From Oscillospiraceae bacterium (lineage in GTDB: Bacteria; Bacillota; Clostridia; Oscillospirales; Acutalibacteraceae), in the NCBI GenBank assembly GCA_015065645.1, contig SVPW01000017.1, positions 1-46,387 of the forward strand: a stretch of DNA of 46,387 nucleotides, given 5' to 3'. This document shows, piece after piece, positions 1 to 15,442 of the stretch. The notes beneath the pieces were generated by a model. That model saw only the letters and a program-made list of their open reading frames with translations, did not search any database and was not told the DNA's origin. A program made the position numbers and the translations under genes. Numbering within the stretch: position 1 is the stretch's first letter; each line of letters starts with the position of its first letter.

Positions 1-1
1 C

Positions 2-625
2 TTTTGTTTAAGATGGTCTAATATAAATTGGTTGAATAATAGTATAACAATCGATGGACAACTACTTTATGATGAAGGTGTATGGACTATTTCTTCTGTA
101 AAAACCCTTCAGGCAGTTAGAACTATCCACATGCCTAAAAACCTTGTTATTAGATTAAAACAAGAATTGTGGCGACAAGAAGCAGAAAAAAATAAACCCA
201 GTTGGAGAGCGACAGAGAGAGTTATTGACGTAAGAGAAAGAAATAATCATAAAGAAATTATTGGCGGAGATTTTATTTGTAGAAAAGAAAATGGTGAATT
301 AATGACTACTAATTCACGAAGTTATTGGGTTAAAAAAATTAAATCTGAATTAGGACTTGATTTTCATTTTCATTCACTTCGTAAAACTCACCTTACTAAT
401 TTAGCAAACCTAAATACACCTATATTAGAATTTCAATTAAGAAGCGGTCATAAGAAAATTGAAACCGCACAGAAATTTTATATTAATCAAAATGCATTAG
501 CACAGAAAATATTAAAAGATAATGTAGAAAGTATTTCTTCATTATCGGGGTTGCATACCAGCCTTGCAGATGGTATAATATCAACAGAAATAAGCCCTAA
601 TGACTTCAAAAAATTAAAAAGGTAA
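2..625 (+). CDS. Tyrosine recombinase (phage-type integrase), C-terminal part
   Basis: The frame is open to the left window edge, so about 207 residues of the catalytic domain are seen and the N-terminal DNA-binding part and first catalytic Arg lie outside. The visible part starts in the LRWSNIN stretch that normally follows that Arg. A beta-hairpin region carries the conserved Lys (SSVKTLQAVRTI), then come the H-x-x-R box (HSLRKTH), the second His (SGHKK) and the nucleophile Tyr (KFYIN). All visible catalytic positions are intact, so the enzyme is probably active. It would catalyse site-specific integration and excision of the element it sits on. It ends 68 bp before the first rubrerythrin-end repeat, as expected for an integrase next to its own attachment site. 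A shorter reading from the TTG at 32 is an artefact of the window edge. Confidence 0.88.
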   Translation, partial: FCLRWSNINWLNNSITIDGQLLYDEGVWTISSVKTLQAVRTIHMPKNLVIRLKQELWRQEAEKNKPSWRATERVIDVRERNNHKEIIGGDFICRKENGELMTTNSRSYWVKKIKSELGLDFHFHSLRKTHLTNLANLNTPILEFQLRSGHKKIETAQKFYINQNALAQKILKDNVESISSLSGLHTSLADGIISTEISPNDFKKLKR

Positions 626-693
626 TTCCGTGTAAAAGTCCGTGTATTGCTTAAAAATAAGCAAAAAACCCTTTATTTATGCGGTGGTCTTGT

Positions 694-750
694 GATGAGG
701 CTCGTCACGGCAAGGCATTTGAGGGTCTCCTCGCTCGTTACTTTAAGTAA
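694..750 (+). repeat. Attachment-type repeat 1: duplicated rubrerythrin 3' end
   Basis: These 57 bases encode DEARHGKAFEGLLARYFK and a TAA stop, the typical end of a rubrerythrin or reverse rubrerythrin including an E-x-x-H diiron ligand motif. No rubrerythrin body precedes it: the frame closes at 658-660. Similarity to repeat 2 continues to about base 816, with 6 differences in 123 bases. It is best read as an att site of the recombinase just upstream. Confidence 0.8.
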
Positions 751-816
751 TATTTGATTGAAAAATCACCTGGGATGTGCTATCATAATGGTAGCACATC
801 TTTTGTTTTGAGGTGA
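751..816 (+). promoter_or_regulatory. Cassette promoter, hairpin and RBS, copy 1
   Basis: The -35 TTGAAA (758-763) lies 17 bases from -10 TATCAT (781-786), with an extended TG at 778-779. A 9-bp inverted repeat GATGTGCTA/TAGCACATC (774-782 and 792-800) overlaps the -10 and is followed by TTTTGTTTT, so it could be an operator or a terminator for upstream transcription. GAGGTG (810-815) is the ribosome binding site of the next gene. The segment is nearly identical to 1622-1687. Confidence 0.65.
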
Positions 817-821
817 TAGAA

Positions 822-1484
822 TTGAAAAAATATATTTGTTTAGTATTATGCCTTTGTATGTTTTTATCCTTTACGGGTTGCAAAGGTAAAACCGACAAAC
901 CTATCAATGAAGAGTCTAACTTGACGGGTCAAATTTCTAATAATGTTGAGTTTCGTGTCAGCGATGATAACTCAAAAATTTGGCTTAACAATTCGCATAT
1001 TGAGAAAATATCGGTAGAAACTGACAACGAAGGCAAAAAAATGTTGGTATTTACAACTACCGAAGAGGGTAAAGCTATTCTTTTTAACGCAACAAATGAA
1101 AATATAGGCAAACCTCTTTCGGTGTCTGCCGACAAATACCTGTTATTTTCACCAACGGTAGTAGCACCCATTGAAGATGGACTTTTTACATTCGATTCTA
1201 CTCTTATTGATTTCGTCTATCTTTATAATTATCTAACTGATGCCAAGGACAAAATGAAAGGTGTTACACCACCTGAAGATTTGATTTCAGAGGATATAGC
1301 AAAAAATAGAGTTTTTGAACGTGCAGGAATTACCGCCGATAATGTGTCAGAACTTAAAATTGAACTTAAAATTGACCAAGATTTTTTCGGTTGGAAATAT
1401 TGTATTGACTTCACAGCAAACGACAAAACATATACAAGTGAGGTAAATGCACATACAGGTGGTATAACTAAATTTACTTTTTAG
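822..1484 (+). CDS. PepSY-like lipoprotein, cassette unit 1
   Basis: The 220-residue product has a lipoprotein signal peptide with lipobox FTGC near residue 20, so it should be lipid-anchored outside the membrane. The TTG at 822 is preferred because GAGGTG sits 6 bases upstream; the in-frame GTG at 813 overlaps that RBS. The last 55 residues (ERAGITADNV to GGITKFTF) have the PepSY-type pattern: an alpha helix, a D-x-F-G-W-x-Y strand, and an E/S-V-x-A-x-T-G-x-I ending. They resemble the end of the lipoprotein at 3620-4009. PepSY domains are commonly linked to inhibition of peptidases or to sensing at the cell surface, but no partner is visible here. The gene is the only cargo between repeats 1 and 2 and has its promoter inside the repeat. 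The middle region was not recognised. Confidence 0.75.
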   Translation: MKKYICLVLCLCMFLSFTGCKGKTDKPINEESNLTGQISNNVEFRVSDDNSKIWLNNSHIEKISVETDNEGKKMLVFTTTEEGKAILFNATNENIGKPLSVSADKYLLFSPTVVAPIEDGLFTFDSTLIDFVYLYNYLTDAKDKMKGVTPPEDLISEDIAKNRVFERAGITADNVSELKIELKIDQDFFGWKYCIDFTANDKTYTSEVNAHTGGITKFTF

Positions 1485-1564
1485 TTTTGGTGTGACAAAA
1501 GTGGGATTTTTGAAAATTCAATAGCAAAGTCCTTTATTCAAGCGGTTTTTAAGTACAGTCTCAA

Positions 1565-1621
1565 GATGAGGCTCGTCACGGCAAGGCATTTGAGGGACTC
1601 CTCGCTCGTTACTTCAAGTAA
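1565..1621 (+). repeat. Attachment-type repeat 2: duplicated rubrerythrin 3' end
   Basis: It encodes the same 18 residues and TAA as repeat 1, with two synonymous base changes inside the coding part. It separates the lipoprotein unit from the membrane-protein unit. Bases upstream (TCCTTTATT then GCGGT at 1542-1546) partly resemble the flank of repeat 1 (CCCTTTATT then GCGGT at 681-685). Confidence 0.8.
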
Positions 1622-1687
1622 TATCTGATTGAAAAATCACCTGAGATGTGCTATCATAACGGTAGCACATCTTTTGTTTTGGGGTGA
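1622..1687 (+). promoter_or_regulatory. Cassette promoter, hairpin and RBS, copy 2
   Basis: This second copy of the promoter segment has -35 TTGAAA at 1629-1634, a 17-base spacer and -10 TATCAT at 1652-1657. The GATGTGCTA/TAGCACATC inverted repeat is at 1645-1671, and GGGGTG is the RBS. The promoter hexamers and both hairpin arms are identical to copy 1. Changes fall in the spacer, the loop and the RBS. Confidence 0.65.
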
Positions 1688-1691
1688 TTTT

Positions 1692-2030
1692 GTGAAGAAA
1701 AAAAGAACAGCGTTATTATGTGTAGGAATTCCATTACTTGTTGGAGTTGGTCTCGTAATCGCTTTTGGTATTGCTTCTATATTAGAATTCCCAACCAATA
1801 GAGGTATTATATACTCAACATTTGCATTTATATCAATAATCGGTTCGATATTAGTTCCTATCCCCAGCATCGCATCTTCAATTATAGGAATCATAAGTGC
1901 TGCAAAATTAAGAAAACAAAGCGAAAAAACAGGATACCTAATTTGGATTGGCATATTAAATATTGTTGTTTCGTTCGTTGTTGAAATATTTTGGTTATAT
2001 GTTGTTTTTGTCGGCAGTGCCGGTGTTTAA
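1692..2030 (+). CDS. Small membrane protein, cassette unit 2
   Basis: The 112-residue protein has a KKKR N-terminus and about three hydrophobic segments (roughly residues 6-28, 38-68 and 82-108), with a charged KLRKQSEK loop before the last. It starts at GTG 1692, preceded by GGGGTG at 1681-1686. A longer reading from 1629 would run through the shared promoter and is rejected. The family was not recognised and no catalytic motif is visible. It is the only gene between repeats 2 and 3 and is expressed from the repeat-borne promoter. It may be an inner-membrane accessory or immunity-type protein, but that is speculation. Confidence 0.65.
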   Translation: MKKKRTALLCVGIPLLVGVGLVIAFGIASILEFPTNRGIIYSTFAFISIIGSILVPIPSIASSIIGIISAAKLRKQSEKTGYLIWIGILNIVVSFVVEIFWLYVVFVGSAGV

Positions 2031-2097
2031 CACAGTGTGTATCAAGGTGTAATTTTTGCAAAGTGGCTTAAATGGTGGGCATTTGAGCATTTTTCGT

Positions 2098-2154
2098 GAT
2101 GAGGCTCGTCACGGTAAGGCATTCGAGGGACTTCTGGGTCGTTATTTCAAATAA
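2098..2154 (+). repeat. Attachment-type repeat 3: probable displaced native rubrerythrin end
   Basis: It encodes DEARHGKAFEGLLGRYFK and TAA. Unlike repeats 1 and 2 it differs at many third-codon positions and has a Gly in place of Ala. Similarity stops at the stop codon: the promoter segment is absent and a strong terminator follows instead. That is what the original chromosomal gene end is expected to look like after being pushed away by insertions. Confidence 0.72.
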
Positions 2155-2183
2155 GCGAAAAACCGCATAAAATAAGGGTTTTT

Positions 2184-2220
2184 AGGACATCCACCGTTTT
2201 GGTGGATGTCCTTTGCTTTT
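2184..2220 (+). terminator. Rho-independent terminator after repeat 3
   Basis: A perfect 11-bp stem GGACATCCACC/GGTGGATGTCC with a GTTTT loop is followed by TTTGCTTTT. It is probably the native terminator of the rubrerythrin gene whose end is repeat 3. Confidence 0.85.
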
Positions 2221-2317
2221 GTGTGTAAATTTGTGATAGTGTGTATTTTACACACTCCAAAACATACTAAAAAATTTGATTTTTGTGGTGTGTGTATTTA
2301 GGTGTGTAAATAAAAAA

Positions 2318-2348
2318 GATATGAGGAAATTTCCCATATCGTTTTTTG
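2318..2348 (+). terminator. Hairpin with T-run
   Basis: GATATG/CATATC arms enclose further pairing GG/CC and are followed by GTTTTTTG. It is a probable terminator isolating the array from the acyltransferase promoter. Confidence 0.55.
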
Positions 2349-2375
2349 ACTTTTTGGCAAACTATTCTGCGTGTA

Positions 2376-2404
2376 TTGAAAAAGCCACATATTTATGGTA
2401 TAAT
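2376..2404 (+). promoter_or_regulatory. Promoter of acyltransferase gene
   Basis: TTGAAA (2376-2381), a 17-base spacer and TATAAT (2399-2404) form a near-consensus vegetative promoter 67 bases before the ATG at 2471. Confidence 0.75.
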
Positions 2405-2470
2405 TTATTCGATAAATAAGAGTTTGATGTTCTTATATAGCATTGTATTAATATAAAGCGGGGCATTGAA

Positions 2471-3430
2471 ATGAAAAAATATTATGGAATTGATTGGCTA
2501 AGAACCATAGCGTGTATTGGGATAATGATGATGCATGTGTGTGTAAACAATAGCTATTTAATTGACGGTTTTATCTATGAACGATTAATTCCTTCATTTA
2601 CAGATTTTGTCTTTCTATTTATGGCTATTTCTGCTTTTGGTATGTGTTGTGGTTATTTCGATAAAGTAATAACAGGACAAGTAAACTGGACTGTTTTTTA
2701 CAAAAAACGATATAGTAAGGTTTTACCATTCTTTCTCTTGTTAATCATTATTGAATTGGTAGCGAGCTTCAGCATCCCGTCCTTGTTTGAAGGCCTTACA
2801 GAAATCACCTTGCTACACGGGTTTATTCCAAAAACGTTTTCCGTAATCGGTGTTGGTTGGTTTTTAGGTACGGTATTTATTTTCTATCTGATTTTTCCGT
2901 TTTATTGTGTATTAATCGAGAATAAGCGTCGTGCATGGTGTAGTTTTGCAGTTTCTGTTATGCTAAATTATATTTGTTCATCATGCTTTAATTTAGGGCG
3001 AGAGAATTTCATTAATTCACTTTGTTATTTCTTGGCAGGTGGACTTATTTATCTTTATAAAGAAGATTTAGAGAAAGTGAAGTGGTATTTTTACATACCT
3101 GTTGTTTTTCTGGCATTATCTTCGTACTACATGATAGGAAGAAACACCTTAACCAGACTCTTTGTTACAATTGCATTACTCATTTTTGCTATTTCAACAG
3201 ATGTAAGAAAGGTTAGAGTTATCTCATTTATTAGCGACATCAGCATGGAATTTTATTTATCACATATGGCTATCTTTAGAATAATTGAGAAATTTCATCT
3301 AAATACGCTATTTGGGAGTGGCTGGGAACAGTTTTTTATTACTAATGCTCTGGTATTTGTCGGAACGGTATTATTTTCCTTTGTATTTCAAAAATTAATA
3401 ACTATATGTCGAACAGCGTTAAAACGATAA
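2471..3430 (+). CDS. Membrane-bound acyltransferase (acyltransferase 3 family)
   Basis: The 319-residue protein has about nine or ten hydrophobic segments. It opens with the family signature GIDWLRTIACIGIMMMHV, in which the WLR-x3-C/I and the His near residue 22 correspond to the conserved R and H of acyltransferase-3 proteins. Such enzymes transfer acyl groups to extracytoplasmic sugars, peptidoglycan or exopolysaccharide. Its substrate cannot be told from sequence. It stands alone behind its own promoter, with a modest RBS (AGCGGGG) before the ATG. The next gene starts 189 bases later after an AT-rich gap with no clear terminator. Confidence 0.85.
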   Translation: MKKYYGIDWLRTIACIGIMMMHVCVNNSYLIDGFIYERLIPSFTDFVFLFMAISAFGMCCGYFDKVITGQVNWTVFYKKRYSKVLPFFLLLIIIELVASFSIPSLFEGLTEITLLHGFIPKTFSVIGVGWFLGTVFIFYLIFPFYCVLIENKRRAWCSFAVSVMLNYICSSCFNLGRENFINSLCYFLAGGLIYLYKEDLEKVKWYFYIPVVFLALSSYYMIGRNTLTRLFVTIALLIFAISTDVRKVRVISFISDISMEFYLSHMAIFRIIEKFHLNTLFGSGWEQFFITNALVFVGTVLFSFVFQKLITICRTALKR

Positions 3431-3619
3431 AATATTGATACTTTATTATACTGAATAAATTAGAGTTTACGCAAACTGTCATTTTGGTAGCATACCCCCT
3501 TTTGTTTTATAGTAATTTATTGACCAAGAAAATAATAAATTAAAAAAATTTATCATGGAAAAAATTACCGGCATTTTTTTCTTTTAAAAGAGCAAAATAA
3601 ATGCAGGAGGTTTATAAAA

Positions 3620-4009
3620 ATGAAAAAAATTTTTGTGATTTTATCTGTTTTAACCCTTATGTTTTCACTTTCCGCCTGTGGAAATAGCTCTTCTATGAAG
3701 GATGATATTAGCAACGGCATATCCTCTTTGGAATCCGCTGCTGATTCTACAATGGATAAAATTAGCGGAGACAACAATGACAAGACTTCACAAAATACTG
3801 CTACTATCAGTAAAGAGGAAGCAAAAAATAAGGCTTTATCCCATGCAGGATTAAAGGAAACTGATATTATGGGGCTTGATATAGATCTTGAGCATGATGA
3901 CGGAATTTACCAATACGATATAAGTTTTTATTCCGGTGATAAAGAATATGATTACGAAATTAATGCACAAACCGGTGAAATAATTTCAGCAGATAGTGAG
4001 CGTAATTAA
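3620..4009 (+). CDS. PepSY-domain lipoprotein
   Basis: The 129-residue protein has a lipoprotein signal (MKKIFVILSV, lipobox LSAC at about residues 17-20). A Ser/Asp-rich linker is followed by one PepSY domain from about residue 60: ISKEEAKNKALSHAG, then D-G-x-Y-x-Y-D-I and EINAQTGEI. It should be anchored on the outer face of the membrane. The AGGAGG at 3604-3609 is a strong RBS. The domain resembles the C-terminus of the cassette lipoprotein at 822-1484, so the two may be distant paralogues. A terminator follows, making it a single-gene unit. Confidence 0.88.
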   Translation: MKKIFVILSVLTLMFSLSACGNSSSMKDDISNGISSLESAADSTMDKISGDNNDKTSQNTATISKEEAKNKALSHAGLKETDIMGLDIDLEHDDGIYQYDISFYSGDKEYDYEINAQTGEIISADSERN

Positions 4010-4026
4010 AAATTGTCATAAACCAA

Positions 4027-4069
4027 ACAGAAGCATACTATTATATTTATGGTATGCTTCTGTTTTTTA
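4027..4069 (+). terminator. Rho-independent terminator
   Basis: ACAGAAGCATAC pairs with GTATGCTTCTGT (12 bp) and is followed by TTTTT. It ends the PepSY lipoprotein transcript. Confidence 0.9.
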
Positions 4070-4090
4070 TTTATAAACAGAAAAAAAGTA

Positions 4091-4119
4091 TTGCATTATT
4101 CGACATTTTGTTGTAAAAT
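4091..4119 (+). promoter_or_regulatory. Promoter of the DUF4190/DUF2752 pair
   Basis: TTGCAT (4091-4096), 17 bases, then TAAAAT (4114-4119). An AAGGAGG RBS lies at 4159-4165, with an unusually long 12-base gap to the ATG at 4178. Confidence 0.55.
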
Positions 4120-4177
4120 ATAAGTAATTATATTCTTAGTCTATAATTATATAATTTTAAGGAGGTTTTCTAAGATT

Positions 4178-4756
4178 ATGATTTGTAACAAATGTGGCAC
4201 TCAAAATGATGACAGCTCAAAGTTTTGTATTGGTTGCGGTAATGATTTAACCGCTCAGCAGGCTGCTCAGGCACCTCAAAACCCTTATGAAACAGCTCCC
4301 CAGGCTCCCCAGGCTCCTCAGAATCCTTATGAGACAGCTCAAACTCCGCCTACATATCAGGCTCCTACCGAAACTTCTCAGCAGCCGCCTTTCCAGGCTC
4401 CCTATCAGCAGCCTGTTCAAACAACACCTTACGGTGCACCAGTTGTTCCCGGTAAAGGATTGGCTATCACAGCTATGATTTTGGGTATTGTTTCATTGGC
4501 TCTTTTCTGCATCTGGTATCTTGCTATTCCCTGCGGTATCGTAGGTTTGGTATTGGGTGCTATTGCTCACAACAAAGCAAAAGCAGTTGGTATGAAGAGT
4601 GGTATGGCAACTGCAGGTATTGTTTGTTCTGCTATTGCTCTCGGCATTGCATTAATATTCATTATTTGTGCTGTTGCCTGTGCAGGTTGCGTTGCAAGCG
4701 AATCCTACTATGCAGAGGATATTTTGGACGAATTCATGTTTAAGAATTTCTTTTAA
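4178..4756 (+). CDS. Zinc-ribbon plus DUF4190 membrane protein
   Basis: The 192-residue protein has three parts. The first is an N-terminal zinc ribbon with two C-x-x-C pairs (residues 3-6 and 17-20). The second is a Pro/Gln-rich linker (about 25-85) containing a duplicated APQNPYETA unit. The third is a DUF4190 membrane region with two long hydrophobic segments (about 95-132 and 145-172). Zinc-ribbon/DUF4190 proteins are frequent in Clostridia and of unknown function. The stop overlaps the start of the next gene (TAATG), so the two are translationally coupled and probably act together in the membrane. Confidence 0.82.
   Translation: MICNKCGTQNDDSSKFCIGCGNDLTAQQAAQAPQNPYETAPQAPQAPQNPYETAQTPPTYQAPTETSQQPPFQAPYQQPVQTTPYGAPVVPGKGLAITAMILGIVSLALFCIWYLAIPCGIVGLVLGAIAHNKAKAVGMKSGMATAGIVCSAIALGIALIFIICAVACAGCVASESYYAEDILDEFMFKNFF
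4268..4340 (+). repeat. In-frame duplication in the linker
   Basis: Two 27-base copies (4271-4297 and 4313-4339) encode APQNPYETA in the Pro/Gln-rich linker. Differences are mostly at third positions, so this is an old duplication. Confidence 0.6.
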
Positions 4757-13651: not shown

Positions 13652-15442
13652 TTATTTTATTTCTTCAAAATCGGCAGCGCCGTGTTTGCAAAGTGGACAG
13701 ATAAAATCTTCCGGTAAGGTTTCACCCTCATAAATATAACCGCATATCTTGCATACATAACCCTTTTTGCCCTGTGTTTGAGGCTTTGGTTTTACATTGT
13801 TTTGATAATAGGTATATGTCATAGTTTCCCTATCAGAAATAACCCTTGCCTCAGCAACAGAGCAAATAAACATACCATGAGTATCAAGGTCTACATACCT
13901 TTCCACCTTTAAAGACATAAATGAATTTATGTGACGAGGCAGGAATACAAGGCCGTTATCAGAGCGAAGCGGTTCACAATCTGCAAATTTATCAACATTT
14001 CTTCCGCTTACAAAACCAAATTTTTCAAACACGGAAAATGGTGCATCCACAGTAAGGCAATTAATATTCATTTTACCTGTTTGCTTAATAACATGGTGTG
14101 AATAATTTTCCTTATTAATGGTAACGGCAATTTGGTTTGGTGTATTTGTAACCTGTGTTACGGTATTAACGATAAGTCCGTTATCCTTTTTGCCGTCATT
14201 TGATGTTACAACATACAGACCGTAACCAATATTGAAAAGTGCGGTTAAATCGTTTTTGTTTGCAGTGGAATCCTGCTTAGCGAGGTAATCCTTGCAAAGC
14301 TCGTCCGCAAGAGAATTAAGCTGAGCCATACTCTCCTCATTAAGAGCTGAAAGTATTTTTACGGTGGTTTCCGTATAGGTTAAGTTTTTGCTTTTTTCAA
14401 ACATTCCCTTCATAACCTTAGCCGCAAGTGGTGCCCAGCTTCCGTTTTCTATGAAAGCTACGGTGCGATTTTGGAAATTGCGCTCTGTTAAATGATTTAT
14501 AAACTCACGCATAAACGGGAAAATTTCGGCATTATAGGTGGTTGTGGCAAGCACCAATTTGCCATAACGGAAAGCATCTTCAACAGCCTCAGCCATATCA
14601 CAACGGGCAAGGTCATTTACCACAACCTTAGGGCAACCGTTTTCTTTAAGCTTTTCTGCAAGAAGCATTACTGCCTTTTTAGTATTACCATAAACCGAAG
14701 TATAAGCAATAACTATACCGTCATCCTCAACATCATAGCTTGACCATGTATTATATAAGCCAAGATAATAACCTAAGTTTTCTTTGAGTATGGGTCCGTG
14801 AAGGGGGCATATTGCGCTGATATCAAGACCTGCCGCTTTTTTAAGCAAGCTCTGAACCTGAGCACCGTATTTTCCAACAATGCCTATATAATAACGCCTT
14901 GCTTCACATGCCCAATCCTCCTCAACATCCAAAGCACCGAACTTACCGAAGCCATCTGCCGAGAAAAGAACCTTATCGGTACTATCATAGGTTACAATAA
15001 CCTCAGGCCAATGAACCATTGGAGCTGTTACAAAGGTGAGATTATGCTTTCCCAAAGAAAGTGTATCACCCTCACCTACTACTATTTGCTTATCTGCAAA
15101 ATCTGTACCAAAAAAGTTTTTCATCATTGCAAACGCCTTTGAAGATGCCACAATTTTAGTATCGGTATAAATTTTTGCAAAATTCATAATATTTGCCGAA
15201 TGGTCAGGCTCCATATGCTGAATTATAAGATAATCGGGCTTTTTGCCACCTATGGTATTCTGTATATTATCAAGCCATTCGTGAGTAAATACCGCATCTA
15301 CAGTATCCATAATTGCGATTTTTTCATCCATTATCACATAGGAATTATAAGACATACCGTTAGGCACAACATACTGCCCTTCAAAAAGGTCTATCTTATG
15401 GTCATTTACTCCGATATACTTGATATCGTTTGTAATATTCAT
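13652..15442 (-). CDS. Four-domain flavodiiron protein with flavin reductase and rubredoxin domains
   Basis: The 596-residue protein has, in order, a metallo-beta-lactamase diiron domain, a flavodoxin domain (IVIAYTSVYGNTKKAV, about 243-390), a flavin-reductase-like domain (about 405-555) and a C-terminal rubredoxin (C564, C567, C582, C585). The diiron ligands H76-x-E78-x-D80-H81, H144, D163 and H215 are all present. It should reduce oxygen (or NO) to water (or N2O), with built-in electron-transfer domains. The ATG at 15442 follows GGAGGG; the upstream extension to 15493 overlaps the promoter. It is the first gene of the operon with superoxide reductase, ferritin and rubredoxin. Confidence 0.94.
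   Translation of the reverse strand: MNITNDIKYIGVNDHKIDLFEGQYVVPNGMSYNSYVIMDEKIAIMDTVDAVFTHEWLDNIQNTIGGKKPDYLIIQHMEPDHSANIMNFAKIYTDTKIVASSKAFAMMKNFFGTDFADKQIVVGEGDTLSLGKHNLTFVTAPMVHWPEVIVTYDSTDKVLFSADGFGKFGALDVEEDWACEARRYYIGIVGKYGAQVQSLLKKAAGLDISAICPLHGPILKENLGYYLGLYNTWSSYDVEDDGIVIAYTSVYGNTKKAVMLLAEKLKENGCPKVVVNDLARCDMAEAVEDAFRYGKLVLATTTYNAEIFPFMREFINHLTERNFQNRTVAFIENGSWAPLAAKVMKGMFEKSKNLTYTETTVKILSALNEESMAQLNSLADELCKDYLAKQDSTANKNDLTALFNIGYGLYVVTSNDGKKDNGLIVNTVTQVTNTPNQIAVTINKENYSHHVIKQTGKMNINCLTVDAPFSVFEKFGFVSGRNVDKFADCEPLRSDNGLVFLPRHINSFMSLKVERYVDLDTHGMFICSVAEARVISDRETMTYTYYQNNVKPKPQTQGKKGYVCKICGYIYEGETLPEDFICPLCKHGAADFEEIK

Follow-up and report, generated by a model that had tools for sequence, protein, structure and literature searches.

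Rubrerythrin 3' ends as probable attachment sites for stacked gene cassettes in gut Clostridia

Rubrerythrin ends in the window and the anchor gene

The window analyzed here is the whole 46,387-nt stretch of DNA that constitutes one entire contig (SVPW01000017.1; C12 in our numbering) of an Oscillospiraceae genome (GCA_015065645.1; 1.86 Mb in 51 contigs). Near its left end, the remaining part of a tyrosine recombinase gene is followed by three copies of a rubrerythrin (rbr) coding end, which bound two small units. The features are listed below from left to right; loci and genomes used for comparison carry L and G numbers.

2..625, + strand: C-terminal part of a tyrosine recombinase (integrase); open 207-aa ORF with its 5' end off the contig; PF00589 Phage_integrase, E 1.5e-11
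665..686, - strand: arm-like site near the right end of the integrase element, one mismatch to a 22-nt motif (motif scan)
694..750, + strand: rbr 3'-end copy 1, comprising core, coding end and stop; found as a repeat and with model R1 (E 2.6e-17, copy 1 itself being in the model's building set)
751..815, + strand: left end of unit 1, type A, common to 12 other type-A units; a hairpin with a T tract (772-802) overlaps a promoter-like site (758-786, TTGAAA-17-TATCAT) and is followed by a ribosome-binding-site-like stretch
813..1484, + strand: cargo of unit 1, a 223-aa lipoprotein-like protein starting at 813 or 822; Pfam SecDF_P1_head slightly below cut-off
1526..1547, - strand: arm-like site in the right end of unit 1, four mismatches (motif scan; right-end sequences)
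1565..1621, + strand: rbr 3'-end copy 2 (repeat)
1622..1688, + strand: left end of unit 2, also type A; its hairpin (1643-1673) overlaps a promoter-like site (1629-1657)
1692..2030, + strand: cargo of unit 2, a 112-aa protein, membrane-like from its sequence; no Pfam match
2040..2097, + strand: right end of unit 2, of a second sequence class (AGTGTGTATCAAGGTGT ... GTGGCTTAAAT ... CATTTTTCGT), like L041, L052, L056, L074, L081, L118 and L123 as judged by eye
2098..2154, + strand: rbr 3'-end copy 3 (repeat)
2155..2212, + strand: left end of a probable third unit; arm-like site 2161-2182, terminator hairpin 2184-2212
2471..3430, + strand: cargo of the probable third unit, a 319-aa acyltransferase (PF01757)
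3476..3518, + strand: weak candidate for what remains of a type-A left end; none of 300 shuffles reached its local alignment score of 33
3620..4009, + strand: PepSY lipoprotein gene (PF03413), with homologues (single-linkage cluster c0) behind rbr at the empty sites of relatives

The array of rbr 3'-end repeats is a confirmed observation. All three 57-nt coding ends claimed in a sequence-only reading of this DNA are present (694-750, 1565-1621 and 2098-2154), and re-measurement returned the same spacings of 871 and 533 bp, as did a recount the same 6 differences in 123 bases between copies 1 and 2, 2 of which fall among the 57 bases of the repeat. The three ends had been called the same; this holds for copies 1 and 2, which both encode the peptide DEARHGKAFEGLLARYFK, but not for copy 3, which reads DEARHGKAFEGLLGRYFK and differs from copies 1 and 2 at nine and seven bases, all from position 18 rightwards, with an A to G exchange in the peptide. 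The recombinase ORF does lie just upstream, ending 68 bp before copy 1 at position 625. Each unit contains a single clear gene, of 223 aa in unit 1 and 112 aa in unit 2, and tblastn found no recombinase in either, again as the sequence-only reading had it. A search for RNA genes gave no Rfam match at gathering score in window positions 1-4200.

Chance repetition was rejected on two grounds, a profile scan and a set of control genes. A 57-nt rbr-end profile, run over both strands of 78 loci, gave no match above a low cut-off of 12 away from rbr and the arrays behind it, except on contigs without a whole rbr (L044, L082, L084 and L093), where the matches sit near contig ends. In the fetched loci, which had been chosen for rbr, 32 of 1901 genes were followed within 10 kb by a copy of their own last 57 nt. 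Of these, 27 are rbr, 3 are the same arrays read on the opposite strand, and 2 are unrelated genes.

To the right, copy 3 does not look like a clean chromosomal end; what follows it resembles the left end of another, apparently decayed unit running from 2155 to about 3600. Similar left ends occur at the start of the integrase element of G067 (L081) and in units of L056, L090 and L098. No rbr-end copy closing this third unit was found: window positions 3426-3625, aligned locally with two right ends from the window and one each from L056 and L081, gave no score that stood out from shuffles. With this unit behind copy 3, the array probably once held at least three units in addition to the integrase element. 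The PepSY lipoprotein gene is probably the right chromosomal flank.

An intact rubrerythrin gene joined to the same 3' end had been predicted for this genome, and one was found on another contig (C4, 8134-8673); it is the only rubrerythrin of the genome at E 1e-40. Pfam assigns it as Rubrerythrin with a rubredoxin-like domain, and the preceding gene is FUR. C4 ends 54 nt past the last matched codon of rbr, and its last 99 nt are identical to window positions 703-801; that is, rbr is fused to the same left end as unit 1. To the left of this overlap, C4 differs from copies 1-3 at repeat positions 3 and 9. An exact overlap at a contig end is the trace that an assembler leaves of one sequence with two predecessors. 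Two arrangements would account for the overlap: the gap may contain a further unit whose left end is identical, or part of the population may have rbr and unit 1 side by side. Similarly, the contigs of L108 and L115 (G045 and G065) break inside the rbr core (positions 1-60), probably owing to repeated sequence beyond, and further arrays may be hidden by such breaks.

Units and integrases behind rubrerythrin in related genomes

When 198 genomes, counting that of the window, were searched at the DNA level, 83 had a match, several of them at two or three neighbouring places. For the genus, we took one rbr locus from each of the 57 genomes, out of 70, with an rbr match at E 1e-40. An extra rbr-end copy lay on the same contig in 16 of these 57 (C4 and C12 being counted together for this genome), and on another contig in a 17th, G060; three more genus genomes had one on a contig that lacks a complete rbr (L044, L084 and L093). 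The rbr gene was cut by the contig end at L108, L115 and L116. In the family, a profile of the 57-nt end matched 282 of 398 genomes, and a manual count found at least two matches, not all of them arrays, in 28; the model alignment, A1, drew on 62 of 82 catalogued copies. Fifteen of the 28 were fetched as regions and four were available from the earlier survey; G398 was viewed as a 4.2-kb locus. The fetched regions included arrays of five copies in G331 and three in G497. Second copies also occurred in other families of the order (G129, G140 and G171), with an integrase between the copies in G171. No cassette array was seen in the fetched regions of G254, G280, G352 and G095, and in G461 and G501 an integrase adjoins an rbr end with no bounded unit seen.

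In related genomes, the 57-nt repeat is followed by different small genes, in differing order and number, as had been anticipated. Together with the intact rbr on C4, these varied arrays support the sequence-only reading of an rbr-anchored cassette array; neither the lack of a rubrerythrin nor the fixed unit order and content among relatives that it had named as contrary findings was encountered. Some loci depart from this pattern. L086 and L130 (G095 and G352) carry tandem rubrerythrin-like genes, not cassettes, with a fusion to other redox domains, by sequence, in L086. In L124 (G218), copies at 3369 and 7272 (oriented locus) enclose 3.7 kb with sugar-metabolism-like genes, and a further, degenerate copy follows rbr at a distance of 199 bp. 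The rbr ends of L041, L052 and L091 contain, or are followed by, a palindromic stretch (CCTCCCTCTGACGAGGGAGG and relatives) that looks like a separate small repeat element.

Setting aside L086, L130 and L124 (the last with no integrase match), we counted 36 units bounded by copies, two of which close on a weak copy (L127, score 23.5; L120, score 33.0); L087, with a 44/57 copy 224 bp behind rbr, is outside the 36. Five units contain an integrase (L049, L081, L088, L121 and L132) and span 4.1-8.8 kb. The other 31 contain none and span 0.15-1.93 kb, with 28 at 0.43-1.45 kb; judging from this small size and from ORF content, they would also lack transfer genes. Four have no ORF of at least 45 aa: L052, L111, L118 (147 bp) and L119 (169 bp). 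A tRNA was considered at L119 107-218 (G497), where this geneless unit has a tRNA-like stem, and rejected, with none called by ARAGORN and no Rfam match.

DNA comparison showed that units are alike at their ends and mostly unmatched inside: type-A left ends agree over about 60-80 bp, and right ends over about 65-113 bp within classes. Type A, with a hairpin as left end, accounts for 13 of 37 units (the 36 plus the open unit of L044). The two type-A hairpins of the window have a T tract, overlap the promoter-like TTGAAA-17 nt-TATCAT and fold 4.4 and 4.9 SD below shuffles. The type-A left end is accordingly predicted to stop rbr transcription and to start that of the cargo. The 13 type-A cargos fall into about eight families by manual grouping. 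Of 13 cargo proteins compared with Pfam, two reach a cut-off (DMP19-like in L128; a zinc ribbon in L122, by 0.1 bit), three match below it and eight do not match. The idea of defence islands was rejected, as none of ten cargo proteins matched a PADLOC model.

The type-A left end was also searched as an exact pattern in a collection of 84,980 species. It occurred at 13 sites on 11 contigs, all 11 already in our survey, so this result is not independent of it. Twelve sites have an rbr-end copy 23 or 135 bp upstream, and the 13th starts 135 bases from its contig start; none was found away from rbr in the collection, and no exact match was found in viral contigs. The 11 records are metagenome-assembled genomes (MAGs) of Clostridia or Oscillospiraceae, seven of them with a stated host: goat, sheep or water deer gut.

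Integrases of one family accompany these ends. The window integrase, which adjoins copy 1 and whose left boundary is off the contig, found matches in 5 of 70 genus genomes at E 1e-10, its own included, and a related integrase found 5 of 398 family genomes at E 1e-40. An rbr end was present in the fetched flanks of all ten integrase loci. Eight of these ends stand apart from an rbr body. The other two are not clearly second copies: G461 showed only the end of rbr itself, and the one in G028 falls at a contig end. The L081 (G067) element has a Pfam Mob_Pre match above cut-off and an NCBIfam MobV match below it; the L049 element has a Pfam replication-protein match above cut-off and another large protein that is unmatched. 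The integron integrase model TIGR02249 (cut-off 265) scored 35.5 bits for L049, 26.9 for L081 and 33.9 for L121, and did not match the window fragment. No type-A left end was seen on the five integrase elements bounded on both sides. In L121 (G221), a type-A left end stands behind the integrase element, at the copy at 14130 of the oriented locus, and next comes a unit related to the third one of G331 (929 bp, 69% DNA identity); the window has the same order, integrase element and then cassette.

A 22-nt motif (AACCGCATAAATAAAGGGTTTT) recurs beside the copies. It was derived from unit ends and counted on the same sequences, so its counts are descriptive and constitute no test. With up to four mismatches allowed, all 22 matches in the 98 loci fall in the 28 kb that lie no more than 80 bp from a copy, and the remaining 1.37 Mb has none; the numbers near copies and elsewhere become 25 and 5 at up to five mismatches, and 33 and 59 at up to six. 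The offsets from the copy start are +62 to +70 and -26 to -39, and several matches are at the ends of integrase-free units. We read the motif as a putative arm-type site of the recombinase.

Several units are more alike between genomes than the genomes themselves, for which rpoB and rbr identities were taken as the best alignments of loci. A unit encoding 289 aa in G041 and the first unit of G331, from a different genus, agree at 97.5% over 1053 bp, against 75.8% for rpoB and 79.2% for rbr; the left end of the G041 unit is about 110 bp longer, and the unit stands alone behind rbr in G041 and first in a row of four in G331. Similarly, unit 1 of the window agrees with an 871-bp unit of G462, from another genus, at 86.5% over 801 bp (rpoB 74.9%). 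Within the genus, units of G026 and G056 agree at 92.7% (rpoB 79.7%, rbr 83.8%). The left-end 974 bp of the integrase elements of G019 and G221 agree at 95.5% (rpoB 79.0%, rbr 79.4%). Filled and empty sites can also be aligned: sequence beyond the final copy of G026, G056 and G068 can be aligned to that behind rbr in G004, G015 and G011, where a single copy was found, and the flank of the filled site in G019 likewise to that of G032. In L063, the direct repeat extends far beyond the rbr end (about 450 bp from each copy) and matches the sequence downstream of rbr in G017 (L106); host flank seems to have travelled with this unit.

Proposed mechanism and rival explanations

We put at roughly 0.78 the probability that the rbr 3' end is a site for cassettes moved by rbr-specific integrases of small, probably mobilizable elements. 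The comparisons show directly how the units are built, that they have ends in common and differing contents, that sites are filled in some genomes and empty in others, that recombinase and target go together, and that single units are nearly identical between genera. According to this model, the rbr 3' end would be the attachment site of a tyrosine recombinase family carried on elements of about 4-9 kb, and would also accept very small units, mostly of one gene, that have no recombinase. Each unit begins with the last part of rbr, which runs from the core (at or close to CGTCACGG) through the stop codon. A predicted terminator for rbr, often with a predicted promoter for the cargo, comes next, then the cargo itself, and then a right end, often with an arm-like site, that leads into the next core. 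Recombination of a unit core with the core at rbr, or at any copy of an array, would insert the unit and rebuild a complete rbr frame, so that units would stack one way behind rbr. Strand exchange would take place within or near CGTCACGG, with the left part of the rbr end coming from the host and the rest from the element, which would keep rbr whole. The integrase may act on integrase-free units in trans, or may move them jointly with its own element; joint excision and transfer in cis with the integrase element would likewise spread units. Each cargo would be expressed from its own putative promoter.

The sequence-only reading had proposed that each insertion restores a working rubrerythrin end. 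The core appears to lie at the A-R-H-G codons, so that the host would supply the E of the E-x-x-H ligand motif in the repeat; the H and the rest of the end would come from the element. The putative exchange positions were compared with the agreement between first and last copies of 27 arrays (L086, L130, L124, L127, L128 and copies scoring 33 or less were left out). Agreement exceeded that of shuffles at column 9 (0.74 versus 0.39) and column 12 (0.70 versus 0.33). It was also raised at column 45 (0.70 versus 0.38), and less so at other columns. Because column 45 is as clear as columns 9 and 12, this comparison places the exchange only loosely and supports it weakly. Counting against the mechanism, most genomes with integrase-free units show no integrase of the rbr-end family (at E 1e-10, one was found in 5 of 70 genus genomes), so that a working system is not visible in most hosts. 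Neither circles nor excision were seen in the assembled genomes analyzed. The missing closing copy of the third window unit, the lack of a type-A left end on the five bounded integrase elements, and the two integrase loci (G461 and G028) whose rbr end is not clearly a second copy also count against it.

A possible reading, though on balance a rather unlikely one, takes the small units for CIMEs, the products of decay of mobilizable elements that targeted rbr. Each would have lost its integrase and kept no more than its ends and one gene, and would now be immobile or move only when a neighbouring element excises with it. Decay is the usual origin of tandem structures in the available portion of PMC5704250; units of L056, L090, L098 and L123 have one or both ends in common with the integrase-relaxase element of G067, several copies are degenerate, and four units have no ORF of at least 45 aa (L052, L111, L118 and L119). 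Against this reading, a unit of the same length (871 bp) reappears in another genus beside different neighbours, and the G041 unit reappears in G331 inside a longer array. The left end common to 13 type-A units is on none of the five bounded integrase elements, and in most type-A units an ORF begins directly behind it.

It is extremely improbable that the repeats arose without a site-specific recombinase, by simple tandem duplication or by gene conversion at the rbr 3' end, and for most arrays the data already contradict this: the units have mostly unrelated contents while their ends are alike, the arm-like sites keep near-fixed offsets, integrases of one family lie beside rbr ends in 10 of 10 matches, and empty and filled sites align. 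This reading draws some support from the longer direct duplication of about 450 bp in L063 and from the tandem rbr-like genes of L086 and L130. That collapsed or chimeric MAG contigs merely feign stacking at a conserved gene is also very improbable. All 11 named records are MAGs, and several contigs break at the core (C4, L108 and L115), but genuine repeats cause such breaks as well; moreover, arrays lie in the interior of 34-262-kb contigs in several genomes, and the same unit and ends recur in goat, sheep and water deer records and in two isolate series.

Relation to known systems and meaning

In integrons, a tyrosine recombinase stacks small single-gene units directionally behind an anchor, and the attC site is variable, imperfectly palindromic and recombined as a single-strand hairpin. 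The rbr arrays resemble them as directional stacks of small, mostly single-gene units behind an anchor. They differ in that the anchor is the coding end of a protein gene, the boundary is a conserved 57-nt coding stretch and the type-A units have a promoter-like site, and the rbr-end recombinases score far below the integron-integrase cut-off (TIGR02249). SCC arrays are composite structures at the 3' end of rlmH, some members of which have no recombinase; they use the serine recombinases ccr, and their elements are much larger. An array at the 3' end of a protein gene with recombinase-free members is common to both, whereas the recombinase of the window belongs to the tyrosine family (Phage_integrase) and the target is rbr.

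The pdif modules of Acinetobacter, as far as the portion of the literature available to us describes them, are likewise small gene modules bounded by recombinase sites, with the recombinase encoded elsewhere; there XerC/D act on dif-like sites, whereas here rbr coding ends are paired with a dedicated integrase family. The closest frame is the tandem accretion of CIMEs and IMEs, with the integron-like reading kept open. The available portion of PMC5704250 describes tandem structures that arise by accretion and include integrase-less CIMEs; in islands of the ICESt1 type, tandem elements are split by att sites derived from the end of the target gene, and integrase-free members stand beside integrase-bearing ones (PMC5704250), as at rbr. 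The rbr units are distinguished from these by their small size (28 of 31 integrase-free units at 0.43-1.45 kb), by holding mostly one gene, by contents that turn over between genera, and by rubrerythrin as the target. Among the titles listed by a literature search covering few subscription journals, there was no report of integration at rubrerythrin and none of recombinase cassettes moved in trans in such arrays.

Integrons are the textbook case of stackable single-gene cassettes. Tentatively, and with the odds somewhat against it, the rbr arrays may represent a second, independently built capture system of the integron kind. Such a system would have a dedicated recombinase family, single-gene cassettes, the coding end of a housekeeping (oxidative-stress) gene as its site, an anchor renewed at each insertion, a terminator-promoter insulator that gives each cassette separate expression, and passage between genera of gut Clostridia. 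A protein-gene anchor combined with arm-like att sites and a promoter within the unit would suggest that cassette arrays may arise from ordinary integrative elements, which bears on how integrons began. For gut Clostridia, the rbr 3' end would be a hotspot for new small genes, with cassette boundaries that may be read straight from genome sequence.
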